Assembly (NCBI GenBank): GCA_029265335.1
Contig: JAJUJN010000062.1
Location: forward strand, 1-9,396
Reading direction: 5' to 3'
DNA from: Alcaligenaceae bacterium
GTDB taxonomy: Bacteria; Pseudomonadota; Gammaproteobacteria; Burkholderiales; Burkholderiaceae_B
Length of the DNA stretch: 9,396 nucleotides
Shown here: piece after piece, positions 350 to 9,396 of the stretch
How positions within the stretch are numbered: position 1 is the first letter of the stretch
Layout of the letters: each line of letters starts with the position of its first letter
Position numbers and translations under genes: made by a program
The notes under the pieces: model-generated
What the model was told of the DNA's origin: nothing
Databases searched by the model: none
Seen by the model: the letters and a program-made list of their open reading frames with translations, nothing else

Positions 350-2194
350 TTGAATATCGGATAAAGGAGCTCGCCGAGGCGGGCGCGCAGGCAGCCACAA
401 GGTGAAAGTGGCGCCCTCGCCTGCTTCACTGGTCACGGTGATTTCGCCGTTCTGACGTTGCGCCAGCGCCTGCGCCAGGTTGAGGCCAATGCCAGTGCCC
501 CGCACATCGCCCGCGGTGGAGGCTCGATAGAAACGTTCAAAGACACGAGCCGTCTCGTCAGCCGGGATGCCCACGCCCTTATCGTGCACCGCACACCAAC
601 TCCGGTCGCCGGTACGACCCACCGACACGGTGACCATACTTTCGGCCGGCGAGTACTTCAGGGCATTGCTGAGCAGGTTGCTGAGAATGGAATCCACCAA
701 CACCGGTTCGCACCAGGCCGACACAGGTTCCGGCGGCAGCTCTTGGTGCAGGGTGCGCTCTGGTGAAGCTTCGCGCTGGCGTTCGCAGGCCGCCGCCACC
801 AGAGCGCGCAGGTCGTGAGTATCACCCTCCAGGGCAATCTGCTCAGCATCGAGCCGCGCGGCGTTGAGGGTGGATTCCACCAGATCAGTCAAGCGACGGA
901 TGCTGGCCCGGATGCGCTCCGCGCGCTGCGCGACTTCCGCCGGCGTGACATCATGGCCCCGACGCACCAGCCGCTGCACGTTGGAGTCGATGATAGCCAA
1001 CGGCGTGCGGAACTGATGGCTGACCATGGCCGCAAAACCGCGATAGAACTCGGCGGCGTCGTGCTCGCGCGCGAACGCGCGCTCGAGATCGTGCAAGGCC
1101 ACCAGCAACTTTTCCTGGGTCTCGCGCAAATGCAGGGTGCGCTCGGCCACTAGATGTTCCAGCTCGTCGCGATGCCGCACCAATGCCCTTTCTGCCATGT
1201 AGCGATCGGTGGTGTCTCTCACGAATAGAATGGCGCCCACCACCTCAACGCCGTGACGCAAGGGCGAAACAGTAATGTCGAGATACTGGGGTTGCGCAGC
1301 CAGATCGCGAAAATACGGCTGGTGAGTGCACTCGGCCGACTCGCCATTCAGGCTGGCCTCCACGGCCCTGGCCACTGGCGATGACGCAAAAAGGCCAGCC
1401 ACCTCTGCCAGGGGCATGCCCTGGGCAGACGCCGCCGTCACCGGCACGATGCGGCTCATGGCTGGGTTCCAGAGGGTGCATCGTTGATTGCGGTCAACCG
1501 CCACAATGCCCTCGCCGCTCGAGCCAAGCACTAATTCCGAAAACTGCTTTTCTTGGCGCAAAGACGCCTCGGCACGTCGCGCCTGCCGCAACGTGAACAA
1601 GAGGCGCGTGGACAGCAATGCGCCACTGATCAGAATCACCACCACCGAGGCAATGATTTCCCACAAGGCCTGGCGCGAGAGGTCGAGACGTTCACCGAGC
1701 TCGTCCCACTCTGCCACCATGGCGGCATTGGCGGCACGGTTGAAGAGCGTAGCCAGGGTTTGCAGTACGGCAGCAAACTCTTCACCCGCTTCGAGCGAAC
1801 CATTCTGCACGGCCGGCAACAGCGCCTCGAGTCGCCGGACTTCCAGCGCCGCCGCGCCGATCTGATCAGCCAGGCCGAGGCCCTGCAAGGCCAGCTGCTG
1901 AGGTATTTGATCCAACAGATTCAAGCGGCTCAGCAGAAGGTCGAAGTAGAGCTCAAGATCGCCGTTGGGCAAGCTCAGGCCGGCCAGATGCCGCGCCACG
2001 GCAGCCTCCAGCCGCAGCACTTCGCGCTGCGATTGCGACAACACCCAGACCATATTCTGACCCGCTTCCAGCCGCATCTGACGTTCCGTACCAGCCAGAC
2101 GGATGAGGGCAAAGCACAAAAACAGCGCAAACACCACGATGGTCAGCAGGTTTACTGCATACCCGAATCGGGGCCCTATCCTGGCGTCGGCCAT
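335..2194 (-). CDS. Membrane sensor histidine kinase with periplasmic sensor region and PAS domain
   Basis: A 619-aa inner-membrane histidine kinase. TM1 is at about residues 13-33 and TM2 at about 179-200. They enclose a ~145-residue, Leu-rich and probably helical periplasmic region. No clear HAMP domain follows. A PAS domain spans about 219-333 (VLGSSGEGIVAVDRNQRCTL to GAILFVRDTTD), then a coiled coil of about 335-385. The HisKA phosphoacceptor is H393 in MVSHQFRTPLAII. The HATPase has the N-box SNLLSNALKYSP (N510), G1 DKGVGIP (from D538), the F-box ARVFERFYRAS and G2 GTGIGLNLAQA (566-576). There is no receiver domain attached. All catalytic elements are intact, so it should autophosphorylate and pass phosphate to the adjacent regulator. 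Start ATG 2194 is coupled to the sulfite-oxidase-fold gene; its TGA overlaps the regulator's GTG start. The PAS domain gives a possible second, cytosolic or membrane-proximal signal input. The stimulus is not evident from sequence. Confidence 0.92.
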   Translation of the reverse strand: MADARIGPRFGYAVNLLTIVVFALFLCFALIRLAGTERQMRLEAGQNMVWVLSQSQREVLRLEAAVARHLAGLSLPNGDLELYFDLLLSRLNLLDQIPQQLALQGLGLADQIGAAALEVRRLEALLPAVQNGSLEAGEEFAAVLQTLATLFNRAANAAMVAEWDELGERLDLSRQALWEIIASVVVILISGALLSTRLLFTLRQARRAEASLRQEKQFSELVLGSSGEGIVAVDRNQRCTLWNPAMSRIVPVTAASAQGMPLAEVAGLFASSPVARAVEASLNGESAECTHQPYFRDLAAQPQYLDITVSPLRHGVEVVGAILFVRDTTDRYMAERALVRHRDELEHLVAERTLHLRETQEKLLVALHDLERAFAREHDAAEFYRGFAAMVSHQFRTPLAIIDSNVQRLVRRGHDVTPAEVAQRAERIRASIRRLTDLVESTLNAARLDAEQIALEGDTHDLRALVAAACERQREASPERTLHQELPPEPVSAWCEPVLVDSILSNLLSNALKYSPAESMVTVSVGRTGDRSWCAVHDKGVGIPADETARVFERFYRASTAGDVRGTGIGLNLAQALAQRQNGEITVTSEAGEGATFTLWLPARPPRRAPLSDIQEVSV

Positions 2195-2205
2195 CAGCGC
2201 ACCTC
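2194..2205 (-). promoter_or_regulatory. TGATG stop/start overlap with GAGGTG for the kinase
   Basis: GAGGTG (2205-2200) lies five bases before ATG 2194, and the last base of the upstream TGA is the first base of that ATG. This favours 2194 over ATG 2230, which would overlap the upstream gene by 37 bases, and implies translational coupling. Confidence 0.75.
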
Positions 2206-2727
2206 GAGCTTGTGCAACTGCCATACCCATCGATAGTCGTAACGGATATCCTGCAGCTCGTCGACTTCGTCGCGCGGATACACAATCCAGAGCGGCCCCT
2301 TGTCGCGGGCGCTGAGCCGCTCCCCATTCATGGTGTGCGCCAGAATAACGTCGTACTCACGAAAATCATCGGCGGGAATCTCGATGACGTAATCGTTGAG
2401 CGCGGACGCCTCAACCACGTTGCCTTGCGCTCCCACCCAATCGAGCAAATCGCGCACCAAGACGCCTTCGAACACTTGCTCGCCATCAGTGACCGAGGTA
2501 GATGTGACCACCTGGCGCGCGGGCAGTGCGGTCAGCAGATCGAAGTCGAAATGGGCTTCATCACCCACATTGTGCTGGGTGAGGGCTCCCCGAACTTGCA
2601 GGATCACATCGTGTTGAGGCGGCGGCAATGGCAGCCGCTCGACCGCACTCCACGCGGCGGACGAGAGGGTGAAGGCGCCGACCAGCATCAGCCGGCCCAG
2701 AAAGAGCAGCGGGTTGAAACCTAGCAT
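2194..2727 (-). CDS. Exported sulfite-oxidase-fold (molybdopterin-binding-like) protein lacking the metal-ligand cysteine
   Basis: A 177-aa protein with a signal peptide (hydrophobic core around residues 6-22, likely cut after A28 in SSAAWSA/VERL). The mature domain matches the short form of the oxidoreductase molybdopterin-binding (SUOX/YedY-type) fold. It has a beta start VILQVRG, then FEGVLVRDLLDWVG (family pattern 'W/F-x-G-V-x-L-R-D-L-L'), NDYVIEIP, ILAHTMNGERLSARDKGPL (family pattern 'A-x-x-x-N-G-x-x-L-x-x-x-x-G-P-x'), WIVYP, and a C-terminal WVWQLHKLEV. Catalytic members bind molybdenum through a cysteine ahead of the FEG segment. That region here is VVTSTSVTDGEQV, and the whole protein has no cysteine. 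I infer it does not hold molybdenum in the usual way and acts as a binding or sensory protein. Its TGA shares one base with the kinase start (TGATG), so the two products are made together. Confidence 0.8.
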   Translation of the reverse strand: MLGFNPLLFLGRLMLVGAFTLSSAAWSAVERLPLPPPQHDVILQVRGALTQHNVGDEAHFDFDLLTALPARQVVTSTSVTDGEQVFEGVLVRDLLDWVGAQGNVVEASALNDYVIEIPADDFREYDVILAHTMNGERLSARDKGPLWIVYPRDEVDELQDIRYDYRWVWQLHKLEVR

Positions 2728-2733
2728 TCCGAG

Positions 2734-2739
2734 CCTCCT
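2734..2739 (-). promoter_or_regulatory. Shine-Dalgarno AGGAGG that decides the start at 2727
   Basis: A perfect AGGAGG is six bases upstream of ATG 2727. It rules in 2727 over the earlier in-frame ATG at 2778, whose product would begin with a cysteine- and arginine-rich leader less suited to export. Confidence 0.8.
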
Positions 2740-2782
2740 GCAACATAAAGTGACAAGGATACCCCGGCAAACCCGCAAGTCA

Positions 2783-3319
2783 TCATCCCAGCTTCAAGGC
2801 GGAGTCGAACCGCCCTTCTACCGGCAGGCACTTCGACAGATCAACCTCGGCAAAAAAGCTCTCTTTGCGACAGATCGACGCGGAGAAAGAACCTGCTGCC
2901 CTCGGATTTTGACCCAATTGCAGTTCTTCAATTTGAACGGCGGCCTGACCGCCTTCGGACCCGCCGATATAGAACACGCCCCGCATACCCTGCGGCCACC
3001 ACGACACGGTTGCTGGCACCGAACCGCGGATCTCCCCGGTGCCGGAAAATTCAACTTGCAGGGAATTGGTCAGTAAACGCTCGGACTTGGGGTCAAGAGC
3101 ATGCACGCTGACGAGCACGTTTTCGCCGAACTGCTGGTAGGTTGCAGTGGCGGTGCCTTCGGCAGGTAGATGCAGCGCGTGGCCTTGGTACGGCTGGCCG
3201 TCGATTTTGGCTGTGAGTTCGCCAATCACCTCGCCACCTGGAGCCGACACGGCAGGAGCCGAAAACACCGCCGCCACCCACCACAGAGCCCCACGACGAA
3301 ACGAAAGACACCGAAACAT
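2783..3319 (-). CDS. Small secreted periplasmic protein with two cysteines, unknown function
   Basis: A 178-aa protein with a classical Sec signal peptide: basic start (MFRCLSFRRG), hydrophobic core (ALWWVAAVFSAPAV), and a likely signal peptidase I site after residue 26 (AVSA before PGGE). The mature part is about 152 residues, looks beta-rich (alternating stretches such as NVLVSVHAL, SLQVEFSG, RGVFYIGG), and has only two cysteines (C150, C164). These could form a disulfide after export. I cannot place it in a named family. The start ATG 3319 is chosen because AGGTG lies five bases upstream and it gives a clean signal peptide; the frame reaches a TTG at 3337 that has no Shine-Dalgarno. It lies 77 bases after the membrane-protein gene and 55 bases before the sulfite-oxidase-fold gene, all on one strand. 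It could be a periplasmic partner or ligand-binding protein for the downstream sensor system (inference from position only). Confidence 0.75.
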   Translation of the reverse strand: MFRCLSFRRGALWWVAAVFSAPAVSAPGGEVIGELTAKIDGQPYQGHALHLPAEGTATATYQQFGENVLVSVHALDPKSERLLTNSLQVEFSGTGEIRGSVPATVSWWPQGMRGVFYIGGSEGGQAAVQIEELQLGQNPRAAGSFSASICRKESFFAEVDLSKCLPVEGRFDSALKLG

Positions 3320-3396
3320 TGCAACACCTGAAAACAAAATGAAGGAGAAACTGGACCGCTGATGGAGCTATGGGCGTTTGGGCTCGTTGAACCAGG

Positions 3397-4401
3397 TCAG
3401 ACGGGCTGATCCGGCGCCGCAGTCGCTTCAGCGCCTGCCGCAGGTGCTGGCGCTGGCGTCACGGTTGCAGCAGCTCGCGCCTTGAGCTCACGAAACTTGC
3501 CCGACATCTGCTCCAGGCGGGCTTCCCATTCAGGGTCGGGCTGCTGCCCTTCCACCGTGCGGAAATACACTTGCATGAGGCAGACGATGGCGAAGGGATC
3601 GAGCAGAGAGGCCTTCACGCTCCAGGCCAGCAGCACGGCGAACACCAAGGCGCCAGCGCTCCATCCGCCGGGCATAAGCCATACGATGGCTGCGGCCGGC
3701 GCCAGCATCACCAGGAATACCAAGAAACTCAGCAAATAGATGAACACGGTAAGCCAGGCCGCGTTCTTGAGCATCACCCGATAGTTCTGCCCATACAAAA
3801 TGAGGGCATCTCGCGCCGAGACCCAGCCGTCGTCGGAGCGGGTTCGGATGGCGTGGGCCAGAATGACTTCGTCGACGAAGCCAATGGCCACGCGCAGAAA
3901 CGCATGCAGCAGGCCCATGAGTTGTTTGACACCCGGCAACGGCAAGAGGTTGAACATGCCACGCACCAACCCCACGATGGCACGCAACACGCCGCGCACG
4001 AGCTGATCGATGGCAAACAGAACACTGGCCTGAGCAAAACGCTCTTTCACCACAGTGGTGCCATAAGCGAATTGCGACTGACCCTGGGGCAACGGTTGAT
4101 CGTCGAGCAAGGCCACCAGCACCGCGATATGGCCAGCCTTTACCAGATAGAGAATGTATTCGCGCGCCCAGTACATGAAGACCGAAACCAGCACGAATCC
4201 GGTCAAGCCTCCCCAGAAGGCGGCGCCGGCTTGAAAGCTCTGGCTGCCCAGGGCGCCCACCCCCCAGCCCACTCCCGCGCCCACCGCGGTAACCAGGATG
4301 TAGGCCAGCGTGATGCCGAAATAAACTGCCAGACGCAGCAAGAGGAAAGGTGCGGTTCGCACCAATAACTGCATCGAACGGGAGAGGCTGAAATCCCACA
4401 T
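3397..4401 (-). CDS. Polytopic inner-membrane protein of unknown function
   Basis: A 334-aa protein I do not recognise. The start ATG 4401 has AGGAG six bases upstream and gives MWDFSLSRSMQLL, a short amphipathic beginning. Hydrophobic segments lie at about 18-46 and 60-80, with a further long pair at about 214-241 and 247-277. Several Gly-rich turns occur in the first helices (GAGVGWGVGALG). The middle (about 115-210) is more polar and includes a distinctive stretch around 176-212 with FVDEVILAHAIRTR, then WVSARDALILYGQNYRVMLK; these look like conserved, functionally constrained residues. The C-terminus is a short charged helix (about 290-309) followed by an Ala/Pro-rich, low-complexity tail of about 25 residues that is probably cytosolic and flexible. 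It follows the antiporter genes after 109 bases and precedes the secreted-protein gene by 77 bases on the same strand. A role as an accessory factor of the antiporter complex is possible but rests only on position. Confidence 0.75.
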   Translation of the reverse strand: MWDFSLSRSMQLLVRTAPFLLLRLAVYFGITLAYILVTAVGAGVGWGVGALGSQSFQAGAAFWGGLTGFVLVSVFMYWAREYILYLVKAGHIAVLVALLDDQPLPQGQSQFAYGTTVVKERFAQASVLFAIDQLVRGVLRAIVGLVRGMFNLLPLPGVKQLMGLLHAFLRVAIGFVDEVILAHAIRTRSDDGWVSARDALILYGQNYRVMLKNAAWLTVFIYLLSFLVFLVMLAPAAAIVWLMPGGWSAGALVFAVLLAWSVKASLLDPFAIVCLMQVYFRTVEGQQPDPEWEARLEQMSGKFRELKARAAATVTPAPAPAAGAEATAAPDQPV

Positions 4402-4510
4402 GCTGGGCTCCTGGACGCTCGTTGAGCGATCTTGAACGGGTGTGCGCCAGCGTAGCAACCAACCGCCATGGCGGAACCGTCAGAATCCATAGGCCTCGCG
4501 GTGCTGGAAC
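4402..4510 (-). other. 109-base gap between antiporter block and membrane-protein gene
   Basis: This is the longest non-coding gap in the window. It holds a perfect 12-base palindrome, CCGCCATGGCGG (4463-4474), and an inverted repeat with five-base arms and a three-base spacer (CGCTC at 4416-4420, GAGCG at 4424-4428). The inverted repeat sits just upstream of the next gene's Shine-Dalgarno. Neither is followed by a T-run on the minus strand, so a classical rho-independent terminator is not supported. I see no convincing -35/-10 pair. The gap may still hold a weak promoter, an operator or an attenuation element. Confidence 0.4.
4408..4412 (-). promoter_or_regulatory. Shine-Dalgarno AGGAG that decides the start at 4401
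   Basis: AGGAG on the minus strand lies six bases before ATG 4401. The frame is open further up (to 4458), but no comparable site precedes an upstream start codon, so 4401 is preferred. Confidence 0.75.
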
Positions 4511-6256
4511 TCAGCGATGAGTGAGCGCGAGCCAGAGAACTCCGAGCACCCAAAGCGTACGGCGTGCGCTCCGCTGCCAGGGTTTCATGCCCTCTTCGCG
4601 ACGCGCCAGCCAATAGACGTCGGCCGCCAGCCATCTATCGATCTGGCGCATGAACGGTCGGCGCCATTGATCGGGTTGTTGCAGCCAATGGCCGATGCGC
4701 TGCACCGGCGCCAGGCAAGCGAGTATGCCCCGCCACACCCATGGCAGGATATCGCCGGCCGGCACGCTGGGCAGCTTCGACTCGTGACGCCGCACTCCCC
4801 CCGCCAGCAGTACCCCCACCAGCACCGGCCAGAGCAATGACCACACATTATCCCAACGAAGAAGATAGGCGTATGGGTGTTGGCTCGCCTGTGGCCACCC
4901 AAGCCAGGACAACGTTGTGGCAGCCACCAGCAAGAGAGGTACTGGCGCATGGCGACAGCATGCAACCCAGGCCCGCGGTCGCGCTCGCGCCGAATGGGAT
5001 GCCTGCTGCTCACCCGCCGCAGCGGCGTGTGTGTCGAGGCGGTACAGAAACCAGGCCAGCAGCATGGCGGTGGTGATCGCTGACCAGCTCATGATGGTGT
5101 CGAAAGGTGCCGGCAGCACCCCTTTGGCGGCAAGCTTCACCAAGCCACCGCCCGTAAAGGGCAGGCCAGCGATGGAAAGAGCCGCCAGACCAATACAGAG
5201 CTGGGCTGCCCGCCGCCAACGCGGCGCCACGGTGACAATCCAACCCACGCCCAAAAACAAGGCGGCCTTGGCCAAGCCATGGTGCACGCCGTACAGCACC
5301 AACGCAGAGTGTGCGGCGGGTGTGGCGGCCATGAGGGCGATCATGCCCACCAACAGGCTCATCTGGCTCACGGTGGAATACGCGAGGATCACCTTGGGGT
5401 GGCGCTGTGTGAGCCCCAGCAAGGCGGCCAGAAAAGCGCCCGTCATGCCCAAGACTGCCAAGCCCACCGCCAGGCCCCCATCGGCAGCTCCAAGGAAAAG
5501 GAGGCAACCGCCAATACCGGCCTTCACGATGGCGCCCGACAACACGGCCGACGCCGGAGTGGGTGCGGCCGGATGGGCCAACGGCAACCAGAGGTGCAAG
5601 GGCAGCAAGCCGGCTTTGATGCCGAAGCCAACGAGCAGGAGAACGATCACCATGGGGCCCAGCTCCAGGCTCGCTAGCGCCGCCCGCACTTCGACGATGC
5701 GCACGCTCTCGGCTCCTGCCGCCCCCATCATGAGCCCCGCCAACAAAGCCGCCTCGCCCAATACGGCCATGCACAGATAGACCCGCCCGGCGCGCAAGGC
5801 GTCAGCATTCCCCTGATGCACCACCAAGGCGTACGAAGCCAGCGACACGACGGCGAAGGCCACATAGAACGTCACCACATCGGCCGCCAAAAACACGCCA
5901 ATATTCCCACTCAAAGTGAGGCACCAGAACCCGGTCAGGATGGCCGGTTTGCGTTGGCAGGCAGGATCCAGCTGCGCGAAGCAAGCCGCCAGAAGCCACA
6001 CGAGTGATGTCATCGCCAGCCACCACCGGGCGCCCTCGGTCAATTCCAATTGAACGCCCAGCAGCAGGCCCGGCAGATCGAGCGCGAGCGGTTGCGGTAT
6101 CAGCGCCAGCGCCAGCGCCGGCAAAGGGGCCAGCGGCAACAACCGCAAAGCCTGGCGTCGACACGCCGGCAGCGAACCCAGCAGCCCCAGCAGCAGCGGC
6201 CAACTGGGCGCCACAAATAACAGGAGGTCGAGAGACATGGCAGCTGGCATGGTCAT
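4511..6256 (-). CDS. Third D-type proton-channel-like subunit, TM5 glutamate missing, extended C-terminus
   Basis: A 581-aa member of the NuoN/MrpD-like superfamily. Recognisable parts are TM7 with K214 (GFGIKAGLLPLHLWLP), TM8 with K245 (SAVLSGAIVKAGIGG), the broken-helix region STVSQMSLLVG, TM11 with H326 and K330 (HHGLAKAALFLG), and TM12 with K374 (PFTGGGLVKLAAK). The TM5 motif reads TFYVAFAVVSLASYALV, so A135 (codon GCC at 5854-5852) stands where the family has glutamate. After about residue 410 there is an extension with a helix near 470-487, a charged and tryptophan-rich stretch of about 500-560, and a final hydrophobic segment (RTLWVLGVLWLAL). The start at ATG 6256 overlaps the upstream stop by four bases. 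No strong Shine-Dalgarno is close (GGAG about 14 bases away), which suggests coupled re-initiation. ATG 6250 or 6238 are alternatives. The open frame extends to 6541, but that part is not membrane-like. I infer a structural or altered-mechanism subunit of the same complex. Confidence 0.8.
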   Translation of the reverse strand: MTMPAAMSLDLLLFVAPSWPLLLGLLGSLPACRRQALRLLPLAPLPALALALIPQPLALDLPGLLLGVQLELTEGARWWLAMTSLVWLLAACFAQLDPACQRKPAILTGFWCLTLSGNIGVFLAADVVTFYVAFAVVSLASYALVVHQGNADALRAGRVYLCMAVLGEAALLAGLMMGAAGAESVRIVEVRAALASLELGPMVIVLLLVGFGIKAGLLPLHLWLPLAHPAAPTPASAVLSGAIVKAGIGGCLLFLGAADGGLAVGLAVLGMTGAFLAALLGLTQRHPKVILAYSTVSQMSLLVGMIALMAATPAAHSALVLYGVHHGLAKAALFLGVGWIVTVAPRWRRAAQLCIGLAALSIAGLPFTGGGLVKLAAKGVLPAPFDTIMSWSAITTAMLLAWFLYRLDTHAAAAGEQQASHSARARPRAWVACCRHAPVPLLLVAATTLSWLGWPQASQHPYAYLLRWDNVWSLLWPVLVGVLLAGGVRRHESKLPSVPAGDILPWVWRGILACLAPVQRIGHWLQQPDQWRRPFMRQIDRWLAADVYWLARREEGMKPWQRSARRTLWVLGVLWLALTHR

Positions 6257-7722
6257 GGCAGATACAGACGCTCCACGATCAGGGTTGCCCAGCCAAGGGG
6301 GCTGAAAGCCAGACCGGCCATCAGGCCGGCGGCCAGTACCACCGCTGCCGTTGCCACCGGCGGCAGCACCAGACCGAACGACTCCGCACTGGGCCTTGTA
6401 CTCTGCGCAGCATCTGCCGGGAGAAACCAGAGCCGGTAGAGGAGCGGTAGAAAATAAGCGGCATTCAGCAAAGTCGAGGCGATCAAGACGGCCACTACCC
6501 AAGGCTGCCCCGACTGCAGACCCCCAATGCCCAAATACCATTTAGAAACAAAACCCGCCATGGGCGGCAAACCAATCATGCCCATGGCGGCAATCGAAAA
6601 CGCCACAGACGTCCAGGGCATGCGAGGGCCCAGACCGTTCAGACCGACCACCTCGCGCACATCCGCCCGTTCGTCGTAGATACCGGCGCAAAAGAACAGG
6701 GTGATTTTCATCAACCCCTGGTGCACCAAATGCACCAACCCGCCGATGACTGCAAACGGGCCGATCAAGGCAGCACCCAACACGATATACGACACCTGGC
6801 TCACCGTGGAAAAAGCCAGCCGCCGCTTGATGTCGGTCTGCTGCAGGGCACGCAACGAGCCCCACACGATCGTGACCGAAGCCACCACCGCGAGCCCCAG
6901 CCCCACGCCCAGTTCCGCCACCCGCTCGATGCCGAAAACATCATAGATGACGCGCACGATGCCAAAGGCGCCGGCCTTGACGACGGCGACGGCGTGCAGC
7001 AGCGCGCTCACCGGGGCAGGGGCCGCCATGGCCGCCGGCAACCAGCCATGCAAAGGAACCAATGCGGCTTTGACGCCCAAGCCCAGCATGAACAGTAGAA
7101 AAATCCAGCGCAAGGAGGTATCGCTCAAGGTCTGCAGCTCGGCCGGCGCACCGAAGGAGACCGGCCCGACCGCGCTTTCCAGCCAGACTATGGCCACCAG
7201 CAGCACGGTGCTGCCGGGCAAGGCAAAGGTGAGATAGCTGCGGCCCGCAGCGATGGAACGCTCGTCCTGCTTATGAGTGACCAACGGCCAGGTGCTGAGC
7301 GTGAGCAACTCGTAGAAGATGAAAAAGGTGATCAGACTGCCCGACAAGGCGATTCCGCTGGTGGCTGCCACACACAGGCCGAAGAAAGCGAAAAATCGCG
7401 ATTGATTGGGTTTGTGGCCGAAGTAATTGATGGCGTAGATCGTGGTGAGCAACCAGAGCGCCGCCGACAGCGTGAGAAACAATAACGACAGCGCGTCGGT
7501 GCGCAACCAGAGATCCAGCCCCGGCACCAGCGAATAGCGCAGCTCGAACTGCGCTCCCATGGCCACCGCCTGAAGCGTGTAGACCACCAAGGTCAACATC
7601 AGTGCGGCGCCGCCCAGGCTCAAACCATTGCGCCAGGCGCGGGCCTTTTCGGGCAAACAAAAGGTGATCAGGGCCGGCAGCAGCGATGACATCAGCAACG
7701 CCAGAGGCAGGGCCGCACTCAT
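6253..7722 (-). CDS. Complex-I-subunit-5/MrpD-like proton-channel subunit (second D-type)
   Basis: A 489-aa polytopic membrane protein of the same proton-channel superfamily, clearly divergent from its neighbours. It keeps E138 in TM5 (FFIFYELLTLSTWPLV), K218 in TM7 (GLGVKAALVPLHGWLP), H243 and K249 in TM8 (APVSALLHAVAVVKAG), H331, H334 and K339 in TM11, and K394 in TM12 (PPMAGFVSKWYL). The TM8 histidine is the NuoL/NuoM/MrpA-type signature, unlike the subunits on either side. All elements for proton translocation are therefore present. The start is taken at ATG 7722, not the open frame's upper limit at 7836. It overlaps the preceding TGA by four bases and has a perfect AGGAGG seven bases upstream, and the added 38 residues of the longer frame are hydrophilic and unlike the family. 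Its stop overlaps the next start. It probably forms a membrane-arm module beside the other D-type subunits; the exact subunit letter cannot be assigned. Confidence 0.85.
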   Translation of the reverse strand: MSAALPLALLMSSLLPALITFCLPEKARAWRNGLSLGGAALMLTLVVYTLQAVAMGAQFELRYSLVPGLDLWLRTDALSLLFLTLSAALWLLTTIYAINYFGHKPNQSRFFAFFGLCVAATSGIALSGSLITFFIFYELLTLSTWPLVTHKQDERSIAAGRSYLTFALPGSTVLLVAIVWLESAVGPVSFGAPAELQTLSDTSLRWIFLLFMLGLGVKAALVPLHGWLPAAMAAPAPVSALLHAVAVVKAGAFGIVRVIYDVFGIERVAELGVGLGLAVVASVTIVWGSLRALQQTDIKRRLAFSTVSQVSYIVLGAALIGPFAVIGGLVHLVHQGLMKITLFFCAGIYDERADVREVVGLNGLGPRMPWTSVAFSIAAMGMIGLPPMAGFVSKWYLGIGGLQSGQPWVVAVLIASTLLNAAYFLPLLYRLWFLPADAAQSTRPSAESFGLVLPPVATAAVVLAAGLMAGLAFSPLGWATLIVERLYLP

Positions 7723-7735
7723 AGGGGCCCCTCCT
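7719..7735 (-). promoter_or_regulatory. AGGAGG plus ATGA overlap at first/second D-type junction
   Basis: AGGAGG (7735-7730) lies seven bases before ATG 7722, and the preceding TGA (7721-7719) overlaps it as ATGA. This fixes the start of the second D-type subunit well inside its open frame. Confidence 0.8.
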
Positions 7736-9239
7736 GCCAATCCGGTCGCCCAATCTGCAGGGCCTCGAACGGCCATGCCGACGCCAGTCCCAGCAGGGCA
7801 GCGGTCAGCGCGAGCAGCAAAGGCAGGCATTGCCACCCTGCGGCCACCGGCTTAAGCTCGGGAGGAGTTTCGGGTCGGCTCATCGCCGCGGCCAAAGGAC
7901 GATACAGGTAGAGCGCCGCGAGCAGCCCCCCCAATACAATCACCACCGCCCACCACCACTGTCCCGCGGCAAAGGCGGCAACCAGCAGCAGGTACTTGGC
8001 GGCAAAGCCCCCGGACGGGGGTAGCCCCATCAAGCTGACGCCCGCCAGACCAAAGGCCAGCACGGTGATCGGCATATGGTTCACCATGCCCCGCAGACCC
8101 GTGATGCGATCATGGCCCAAGGCCTGCAGCCATAGCCCAGCACACAAGAACATGGCGGCCTTTGCCAGGCCATGACTGAATAGCTGAAACCACATGCCGC
8201 TCCAGGCGTCTGTCGACCACGGCTGTTCCTGGGCGGAGCCGCCCGCCAGCGGAAAGATAAAAAACAGGTAGCCGATCTGTGCGACCGTGGACCAGGCAAT
8301 GAGCAACTTCAGCCGCTCCTGACGCAGCGCCAGCAAACTGCCATAAACCACCGCCATCGCGCCCAATACCCCCAGAACATTGAGAGCGGCGGGCGATGCC
8401 GCTGCCGCCCCGGCATCGAGCCAGATCTTGAGAATGAGAAGGAAAGCCACCTTGGGCACCAGCGCCGACAGCACCGCGGAGCCCGCCGCCGGCGCGCTGG
8501 CGTGAGCCGATGGCAACCAGGCGTGAAAAGGAAACAGCGCTGTCTTGATGAACAGGCCCACGGTGATGATGGCCAGCGCTAGAATATCGGTGGGAGTGGA
8601 CCAGGCAGCCTGCGAGAGCAAGCCGACATCCAAGGTGGCGTGCTGGCCATACAGCAAGGTGACGCCCAGCAAATACCAAAGCGACCCCATCAAGGCATAG
8701 GCCAGATAGCGCAGGCTGGCCGAAAGCGCTTCGGCATTGCCAGCGAGCGCCACCACCGCCACGGCGGACAGGCTCACCAGCTCCAAGCCCACGTAGGCGT
8801 TGAACAAATCATCGGTGACCACCACCAGATTGAGCCCCGTCCACAACAGCAGCATGAGCGGCCAGAACGATTCTGCCTGCCGGCGCTGGCCCAAGAGCTT
8901 TTCGCGCCCCTCTTGCGACGTGGGCTCAGGCTGGTGAACTAGGGCAAACTCTTTTCTGGCGTAGATCAGCACCGCCGTCATTACCGCGCCGGCCAAGGTG
9001 AGCAGTGCCGCCCTGGCACCATCGACCGCCCAGGCGATGCCAAGAGGTACGGGCCAGCTACCCAAGACCACAGACACCGGCCCTTGCCACAGCTGTATCC
9101 AAAGCACTGTCAGACACACCCAGGTGGCCACCAGCCCGACTGCGGCAAAGTGCTTACCTTGCCTGGGCCAGACCACGGCCGGCAGCGCTGCGAGCAAAGG
9201 CAGCAGCACCATGCCGACCACAGCCACCTCGCTCGTCAT
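7719..9239 (-). CDS. mnhD: MnhD/MrpD-like proton-channel subunit (first of three D-type subunits)
   Basis: A 506-aa polytopic membrane protein of the NuoL/M/N-MrpD superfamily (proton-conducting transporter domain). It is predicted to move H+ or cations across the inner membrane as part of an Mrp-type antiporter. The proton-path residues are visible: E153 in the TM5 motif GLELVSL, K232 in TM7 (GLFIKTALFPFHAWLP), K263 in TM8 (SALVPKVAF), the TM11 motif H356-x3-K360 (HGLAKAAMF), and K415 in TM12 (PPSGGFAAKYLL). The TM8 position equivalent to the NuoL-type histidine is not a histidine, which fits the D/N type. Length is normal for MrpD. A hydrophilic stretch at about residues 95-125, rich in charge, forms a loop between early helices. 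The ATG at 9239 overlaps the upstream stop (ATGA) and has GAGGA six bases before it. Its own TGA overlaps the next start in the same way. It could be called NuoN/NuoM-like, but no complex I peripheral subunits are present here. Confidence 0.88.
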   Translation of the reverse strand: MTSEVAVVGMVLLPLLAALPAVVWPRQGKHFAAVGLVATWVCLTVLWIQLWQGPVSVVLGSWPVPLGIAWAVDGARAALLTLAGAVMTAVLIYARKEFALVHQPEPTSQEGREKLLGQRRQAESFWPLMLLLWTGLNLVVVTDDLFNAYVGLELVSLSAVAVVALAGNAEALSASLRYLAYALMGSLWYLLGVTLLYGQHATLDVGLLSQAAWSTPTDILALAIITVGLFIKTALFPFHAWLPSAHASAPAAGSAVLSALVPKVAFLLILKIWLDAGAAAASPAALNVLGVLGAMAVVYGSLLALRQERLKLLIAWSTVAQIGYLFFIFPLAGGSAQEQPWSTDAWSGMWFQLFSHGLAKAAMFLCAGLWLQALGHDRITGLRGMVNHMPITVLAFGLAGVSLMGLPPSGGFAAKYLLLVAAFAAGQWWWAVVIVLGGLLAALYLYRPLAAAMSRPETPPELKPVAAGWQCLPLLLALTAALLGLASAWPFEALQIGRPDWQEGPL

Positions 9240-9250
9240 TCGTCATCCTC
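9236..9250 (-). promoter_or_regulatory. GAGGA plus ATGA overlap at C/first D-type junction
   Basis: GAGGA (9250-9246) lies six bases before ATG 9239; the stop of the C subunit (9238-9236) overlaps that start. It indicates coupled translation of the C and D subunits. Confidence 0.7.
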
Positions 9251-9396
9251 GGCGAGAGCCGCACGACTGGTGACGCGCGCGTGGGCGATGAGCAGGGCCA
9301 CCGCCAGCGCGGTTGCCGCCAAGGCCACCACAATGCCAGTGATGACGAGAGCTTGAGGAACCGGGTCGGTTAACGGATCGCCCCGGCGAGCCATGG
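9236..9396 (-). CDS. mnhC: NuoK/MnhC-like antiporter subunit C, C-terminal fragment
   Basis: This is the last ~53 codons of a small membrane subunit, cut by the right window edge, ending in TGA at 9238-9236. The visible protein has the motif DPVPQALVITGIVVALAAT followed by hydrophobic residues and an acidic tail (AEDDE). The 'D-P-x-P-Q-A-L-V-(L/I)-T-(A/G)-I-V' stretch is the family hallmark of MrpC/MnhC and related NuoK-like proteins, where it begins the last transmembrane helix. In Mrp complexes the C subunit packs against the D-type channel subunits in the inner membrane and helps carry the ion path. Its stop overlaps the start of the next gene by four bases (ATGA), so it is translationally coupled to it. 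An ATG lies at the very edge of the window, but it precedes the DP motif by only a few codons and is internal to a normal C subunit. The true start is therefore outside the window. Confidence 0.85.
   Translation of the reverse strand, partial: MARRGDPLTDPVPQALVITGIVVALAATALAVALLIAHARVTSRAALAEDDE

Follow-up and report, generated by a model that had tools for sequence, protein, structure and literature searches.

A third D-type antiporter subunit without the TM5 glutamate, and a conserved TM6 acid as the likely partner of its TM7 lysine

The operon and its three D-type subunits

The stretch of DNA analysed in this study (the window, 9,396 nucleotides) is an entire contig (C211) of the genome assembly of an Alcaligenaceae bacterium, which is composed of 543 contigs and is 89% complete. 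Its minus strand carries part of an operon predicted from sequence to encode an Mrp-type (CPA3) cation/proton antiporter, including three consecutive D-type subunits, herein designated D1, D2 and D3. D1 and D2 carry the canonical glutamate of transmembrane helix 5 (TM5), whereas D3 carries alanine (Ala135) at this site, together with a glutamate (Glu168) on TM6, which is the likely substitute partner of the TM7 lysine (Lys214). The genes of this part of the operon are as follows.

9236 to 9396, minus strand: MrpC-like (NuoK-like) gene, C-terminal end, cut by the contig end (Oxidored_q2 match)
7719 to 9239, minus strand: D1, first D-type subunit (PF00361, E 2e-56)
6253 to 7722, minus strand: D2, second D-type subunit (PF00361, E 2e-59 for a longer frame)
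4511 to 6256, minus strand: D3, third D-type (Proton_antipo_M) subunit, 581 residues (PF00361 match; start codon ATG at 6254-6256, stop codon at 4511-4513)

D3 belongs to the PF00361 superfamily (115.3 bits against a cut-off of 21.5, E 4e-33, for the profile match of a longer frame). The MrpC-like piece, of which the last 52 residues are present, matches Oxidored_q2 with 28.0 bits (cut-off 26.1), and its gene occupies the same place in related loci. Since an ATGA overlap exists at each junction (9236-9239, 7719-7722 and 6253-6256), the MrpC-like gene, D1, D2 and D3 are probably co-translated. The order in relatives is MrpEFG-MnhB-C-D1-D2-D3, and the MrpE, F, G, C and MnhB-type genes were found in the three related loci scanned (L044, L092 and L116 in our numbering), except that MrpF was found in two of them. 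In the genome under study these genes are also present, divided between two unjoined contigs. One of its other contigs (C176, locus L125, positions 1-1968) carries MrpE-MrpF-MrpG followed by a gene with MbhD and MnhB domains and is cut at the contig end; it is likely to be the upstream half of the operon in the window. The D3 operons differ from MrpA-type operons in that the MbhD and MnhB domains are in a separate gene and in that up to three D-type genes are present.

The TM5 and TM6 sites of D3

Conservation was examined in three sets of D3 sequences, which overlap and whose counts are not additive. The close set consists of 121 aligned sequences, the window D3 and the 120 listed of 2771 matches of a protein search with D3; one of them, P0001, is identical to the window D3 at 578 of 581 residues and is probably the same gene. 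The locus set (83 sequences) was obtained from a scan of genome contigs, which gave at least 589 pattern matches, of which 513 encode a relative; it comprises the best 80 of these loci, two loci of the same genus (L041 and L042) and the window. The remote set consists of the 120 listed of 6289 matches of a second protein search, started from ten divergent D3 members. The D3 matches span records titled Verrucomicrobia, Gemmatimonadetes and Novipirellula as well as many Proteobacteria. The residues under discussion are encoded as follows.

8781 to 8783, minus strand: codon GAG, Glu153 of D1, TM5 (alignment)
7309 to 7311, minus strand: codon GAG, Glu138 of D2, TM5 (alignment)
5852 to 5854, minus strand: codon GCC, Ala135 of D3, TM5 site (column in which D1 and D2 have Glu)
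8682 to 8684, minus strand: Ser186 of D1, TM6 site (alignment)
7210 to 7212, minus strand: Ser171 of D2, TM6 site (alignment)
5753 to 5755, minus strand: codon GAG, Glu168 of D3, TM6, proposed substitute partner of Lys214 (conservation; column of the NuoL TM6 Asp)
5615 to 5617, minus strand: codon AAA, Lys214 of D3, broken helix TM7 (alignment, model)
5522 to 5524, minus strand: codon AAG, Lys245 of D3, TM8 (alignment)
5135 to 5137, minus strand: codon AAG, Lys374 of D3, TM12 (alignment)
5123 to 5125, minus strand: Lys378 of D3, second TM12 lysine, one turn past Lys374 (alignment)

The alignment around TM5 is unambiguous, with FYVAFAVVSLASY in D3 against FFIFYELLTLSTW in D2 and AYVGLELVSLSAV in D1, and together with the codons it bears out the contrast between Ala135 of D3 and Glu153 and Glu138 of D1 and D2, from which an earlier note on this DNA had started. 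Glutamate occupies this column in MrpD (7qru_D), MBS (6u8y_X), MBH (6cfw_H) and two plant ND4 proteins (five compared of 104 matched sequences), as well as in all covered rows of D1 (77/77; 2 of 79 gapped) and D2 (57/57; 1 of 58 gapped). In D3 the column includes Ala 119 and Thr 2 in the close set, Ala 60, Thr 11, Ser 7, Gly 2, Leu 2 and Val 1 in the locus set, and Ala 85, Thr 20, Ser 13 and Leu 2 in the remote set, an acid being absent from 121/121, 83/83 and 120/120 rows, respectively. A sequencing error or a lone mutant, which the earlier note had considered in case relatives carried Glu, is thus ruled out, the residue being uncharged (A, T, S, G, L or V) in all relatives examined.

Glu168 shows the opposite behaviour. 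Its column is Glu in 120 and Asp in one of the 121 close sequences, and Glu in all of the remote (120/120) and locus (83/83) sequences. Within the first 480 residues of D3, an acid is present throughout all three sets at only two sites, Asp126 and Glu168; the former is common to D1, where 76 of the 77 covered rows have Asp. A TM5 acid hidden by a shifted alignment was ruled out on this ground, Asp126 being the sole other always-acidic site. Less regular acids are found at position 148, just past the predicted TM5 (111/121 close and 69/83 locus rows, less than 60% of the remote set), and, in the remote set, at positions 73 (119/121) and 101 (114/121), which are Thr and Gln in the window. On the tree described below, no fewer than 12 changes among A, T, S, G, L and V are required at the TM5 site of D3, while the TM6 Glu is constant in 83/83 rows, indicating that the TM5 site varies freely. 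No reversion to an acid at the TM5 site was detected among the sequences sampled, and no intermediate of the D3 clade with an acid at both sites among the matches listed (120 of 6289).

The TM6 site is Ser in 77/77 rows of D1, and Ser in 47 and Gly in 10 rows of D2. The pattern is therefore reciprocal: D1 and D2 have Glu at TM5 and Ser or Gly at TM6, whereas D3 has A, T, S, G, L or V at TM5 and an acid at TM6. Likewise, MrpA rows have Glu and Gly, and MrpD of 7qru has Glu and Ser, against Ala and Glu in D3. A wider set of 64 superfamily frames was taken from loci L001-L040 (this genome and 29 relative loci), several frames repeating one gene in overlapping loci. Both sites are covered in 57 of these frames; 50 have the TM5 Glu, and TM6 acids occur only in six D3 frames (three genes, four of the frames being the window's own) and in one NuoL (Asp; named by NCBIfam).

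Glu168 aligns, in both L-INS-i and hhalign, with the Asp of the 'NRVGD' motif in NuoL of this genome, and Ala135 with the TM5 Glu of the same protein. This NuoL Asp is taken to correspond to Asp178 of E. coli NuoL because an Arg precedes it by three residues, the same spacing as Arg175 and Asp178. In the AlphaFold2 model of D3 (mean predicted local distance difference test score, pLDDT, 90.3), Ala135 lies in helix 127-146 and Glu168 in helix 151-182. An acidic residue standing in near Lys214, which the earlier note had suggested looking for, is thus found by alignment alone, and D3 is likely to pair Lys214 with Glu168.

The lysines of TM7, TM8 and TM12, described earlier as kept, are so by codons and by conservation. 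Lys214 is Lys in every row of the close (121/121), remote (120/120) and locus (83/83) sets, Lys245 in 117/121, 113/120 and 80/83 rows, and Lys374 in 121/121, 120/120 and all 81 covered locus rows (2 of 83 gapped). Lys378 is conserved to a similar degree (121/121 close, 117/120 remote, 81/81 covered locus rows), and Glu168 is as conserved as these lysines (83/83 locus, 120/120 remote). Lys214 lies near the end of the predicted helix 200-215, which is followed by a break, and both the TM7 and TM12 lysines are on broken helices, with predicted gaps at 216-222 and 364-368. The site of Lys378, four residues past Lys374, is Leu in D1 and Gly in D2 of the window.

On a quick, midpoint-rooted tree of 76 rows, in which the deep branches are weak evidence and four rows carry profile-based labels, D3 forms a separate clade (Shimodaira-Hasegawa-like approximate likelihood ratio test, SH-aLRT, 100). 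The sole NuoL row, whose branch is long, clusters with the MrpA rows (98), which were assigned as MrpA by domains or NCBIfam (L004, L019 and L023). Since D3 and NuoL are separate on this tree, their TM6 acids are probably separate inventions.

The C-terminal tail and operons without D2

Past the lysines, D3 ends in a tail with a candidate lateral helix.

4586 to 4747, minus strand: residues 504-557 of D3, possible lateral helix, followed by the last helix 560-580 (DSSP of the model)

Helices are predicted at 504-525, 532-557 and 560-580, in a block with pLDDT 55-84 from residue 501 on, and the first two are amphipathic (Eisenberg moment 0.46 and 0.30). This weak prediction suggests that D3 may carry a lateral helix.

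Among 82 D3 loci, 55 carry D1, D2 and D3, 23 carry D1 directly before D3, and four are cut. The 23 loci without D2 are L075, L081, L084, L090-L092, L094, L096, L099, L101-L105, L107, L110, L111, L115, L117-L120 and L122. D2 was sought in eight of these 23 genomes: seven gave only a remote paralogue as the best match (145 bits or less), and the eighth carries a full second operon (598 bits). Because D2 is absent there, D1 and D3 are the only channel subunits in the 23 loci, and the claim of the earlier note that two intact channels remain beside D3 does not hold for them.

Measured from Lys374 to the stop, the D3 tail has 159-177 residues (median 168) in the 23 loci without D2 and 177-204 (median 186) in 50 loci with three D-type genes, five of the 55 having been dropped as truncated and the four cut loci excluded; the window has 207. 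The D3 tail is thus about 18 residues shorter (median) where D2 is absent, and about 18 helix residues correspond, by our estimate, to about 27 Å, roughly one subunit. An alternative measure, in which the tail was counted from a P-x-GD motif, was replaced by the length from Lys374 because the motif was not found in 22 of 83 rows and three values were oddly low (9, 13 and 37). The model of a D3 from an operon without D2 (Bosea, L092; mean pLDDT 89.4) shows helix 458-484 and, past it, helices 492-499 and 501-542, a shorter segment with pLDDT 58-80.

Comparison with known systems and alternative explanations

Based on these observations, we consider it probable that Glu168 replaces the TM5 Glu, which D3 lacks in all relatives examined, as the partner of Lys214, and that D3 is still a working proton path in an Mrp-type antiporter; this activity is predicted because Glu168 likely takes over as the partner. 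Glu168 would be the counter-ion of Lys214, and protons would pass along Lys214, Lys245 and Lys374/Lys378. D3 would be the end subunit with a lateral helix, adjoining D2, or D1 where D2 is absent. With no TM5 carboxylate facing the TM12 lysine of the neighbour, D3 would be biased to the 'open' ion-pair state, as proposed for DabB2, and would be coupled to its neighbour more loosely than MrpA to MrpD.

The canonical pair of MrpD, NuoM and NuoN, TM5 Glu with TM7 Lys, is lacking in D3, and its role as a gate, a pKa tuner or a subunit coupling point is debated for complex I and Mrp (PMC7419157, PMC13324432, PMC9802314). An acid on TM6 is known as a partner of the TM7 lysine in NuoL. In electron cryo-microscopy of E. 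coli complex I, wild type or D79N variant, Asp178 of NuoL is 3.3 Å from Lys229 and Glu144 is at 4.8 Å (PMC13324432), and the pair Lys216/Asp166 of Nqo12 has been described likewise (PMC5938582). D3 differs from NuoL, Nqo12 and ND5 in that it lacks the TM5 Glu as well as an Arg three residues before the TM6 acid, this position being V 42, L 26, I 14 and F 1 in the locus set, with no equivalent of Arg175. D3 also belongs to an Mrp-type operon and a separate clade, and NuoL of this genome has Thr where D3 has the TM8 lysine.

A closer likeness is found in DabB2 of the DAB2 CO2-hydration complex, reported in 2026, in which Ile151 replaces the Glu while Lys235 and Asp185 are kept; alanine variants of the ion pairs reduced growth yield by 30-60%, restoration of Glu at position 151 halved the yield, and it was argued that the subunit may be stabilised in an open form (PMC13144422). 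As in D3, the TM5 Glu is replaced and an acid is kept as the partner, in D3 the likely one, of the TM7 Lys; unlike D3, DabB2 has DabA as a partner, shows a displacement of TM12-14, uses Asp as the acid and has an Arg (Arg182). By analogy, DabB2 is a direct tested precedent, and an independent second case, for the switch in D3. The identification of D3 itself as a DabB was rejected, as no DabA (PF10070) was detected in its own genome (89% complete); the same PF10070 search was positive in two of 14 controls (B. subtilis and H. volcanii). D3 does not represent a new kind of system; its clade as a whole shows a variant of an established ion-pair motif, for which there is one tested precedent.

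Two other systems share parts of the arrangement. The archaeal MBS has two D-type subunits, MbsH and MbsH', and the length of its lateral helix corresponds to this number (PMC7684303), a relation that the D3 system, with its weakly predicted helix, may share. In contrast to D3, both subunits keep the axis Glu (E138 and E128), and a redox module is part of MBS. HycC of the E. coli formate hydrogenlyase has a short lateral helix and lacks one member of the Glu/Lys pair (PMC9474812); there, unlike in D3, the Lys is lost (Leu208) and Glu135 of TMH5 is kept.

Several points weigh against a working proton path through Glu168 and Lys214. The replacements E140A in MrpA and E137A in MrpD abolish antiport in B. 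pseudofirmus Mrp (PMC5703873), indicating that loss of this Glu can be fatal, while E113Q in MrpA had little effect in the work of another group (PMC4938563). The analogy with NuoL is incomplete because NuoL has both acids and Arg175, whereas the TM5 acid and the Arg are both missing from D3, and on the quick tree of 76 rows D3 does not share a common clade with NuoL and MrpA. Loss of the TM5 Glu without TM6 replacement does occur in the superfamily, as is seen in a hydrogenase-4 subunit B (NCBIfam; L016, positions 592-2601), whose TM5 and TM6 sites are Gly and Ala, respectively. The presence of D2 changes once on the tree, in an event common to all rows without D2, and therefore the difference in tail length represents one evolutionary event, for which reason a Mann-Whitney p-value was discarded; moreover, the two ranges touch at 177, and the lateral helix is taken from single-chain models with pLDDT 55-84 (window) and 58-80 (L092) in the C-terminal block. 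A literature search, mainly outside subscription journals, found no antiport test of a D1-D2-D3 operon; among the papers listed by the same search there was, DabB2 apart, no recognisable description of D3 or of a TM5-to-TM6 swap in an Mrp-type subunit.

The fatal effect of Glu replacement in MrpA and MrpD (PMC5703873) would also fit an explanation that we regard as unlikely, namely that D3 is a non-conducting, structural spacer, without proton gating for want of the TM5 Glu, and that only its lateral helix serves, strapping D1 and D2. D3 may indeed carry such a helix, to which a purely structural role has been assigned in complex I of P. denitrificans (PMC9802314). A dead spacer is expected to drift, however, while the TM7, TM8 and TM12 lysines, His325/His326 and Glu168 are near-invariant, and operons without D2 would be left with one working channel. 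The earlier note was right that the third subunit differs, the TM5 Glu being absent there and canonical in D1 and D2, but the non-pumping, structural role that it put first gives way in view of Glu168, an invariably acidic substitute.

Still less probable, in our view, is a Glu168-Lys214 pair that is locked and only nominal, D3 being a constitutively open, ungated proton path, either a leak or a conductance driven by the proton-motive force, fully uncoupled from D1 and D2. DabB2, with the same loss, is possibly stabilised open (PMC13144422), and E132Q in Nqo12 was simulated as open and conductive (PMC13220270), but a leak in an antiporter would waste the proton-motive force, and the electrostatics differ because Arg182 of DabB2, at -3 of the acid, is absent from D3. 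We give least credence to the idea that, at the D2/D3 interface, D3 moves or helps to bind another ion, Na+ or K+, enabled by removal of the TM5 carboxylate: an earlier model put Na+ at the interface of MrpA TM5 and MrpD TM12 (PMC5703873), but the Mrp structure paper describes this interface as hydrophobic and tightly sealed, with Na+ assigned to the part of MrpBCEFG and MrpA-C (PMC7419157), the operon has genes for MrpE, F, G and MnhB, and a cation site would be weakened, rather than created, by the removal of a carboxylate.

If Glu168 is the partner of Lys214, the consequences may reach the neighbouring subunit, since the TM5 Glu of MrpA is 7 Å from the TM12 Lys of MrpD, a proposed point of inter-subunit coupling (PMC7419157). 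As a tentative and rather doubtful extension, the clade may have moved the coupling carboxylate from TM5 to TM6, the terminal channel keeping its lysine switch while being electrostatically freed; with a D2 that can be gained or lost and a lateral helix acting as a ruler, the system would be a geared antiporter, its H+/cation ratio set by the number of modules. A large natural family without the TM5 Glu, with the lysines kept and a fixed acid one helix away, represents a ready experiment on the role of the pair, and the D1-D3 and D1-D2-D3 operons offer a natural test of channel number against stoichiometry.

Some minor observations were made along the way. D3 is identical over the tree columns in L071 and L072, records titled Chelativorans and Paracoccus, and nearly identical in L086 and L087 (Paracoccus and Mesorhizobium); recent transfer and mixed assemblies are candidate explanations. 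In an Oceanicaulis metagenome-assembled genome (L060, 7463-9004), D2 is in two frames, representing a frameshift or an assembly error. Past the operon in the window (2194-4458), three genes encode proteins of 353 and 184 residues without a Pfam match and a protein of 194 residues with an Oxidored_molyb domain; they were left out of the system because blastp (E up to 1e-6) matched none of them in the 82 related loci. Further downstream on the same strand (3-2230) lie an apparent response regulator, which is cut, and a PAS histidine kinase.
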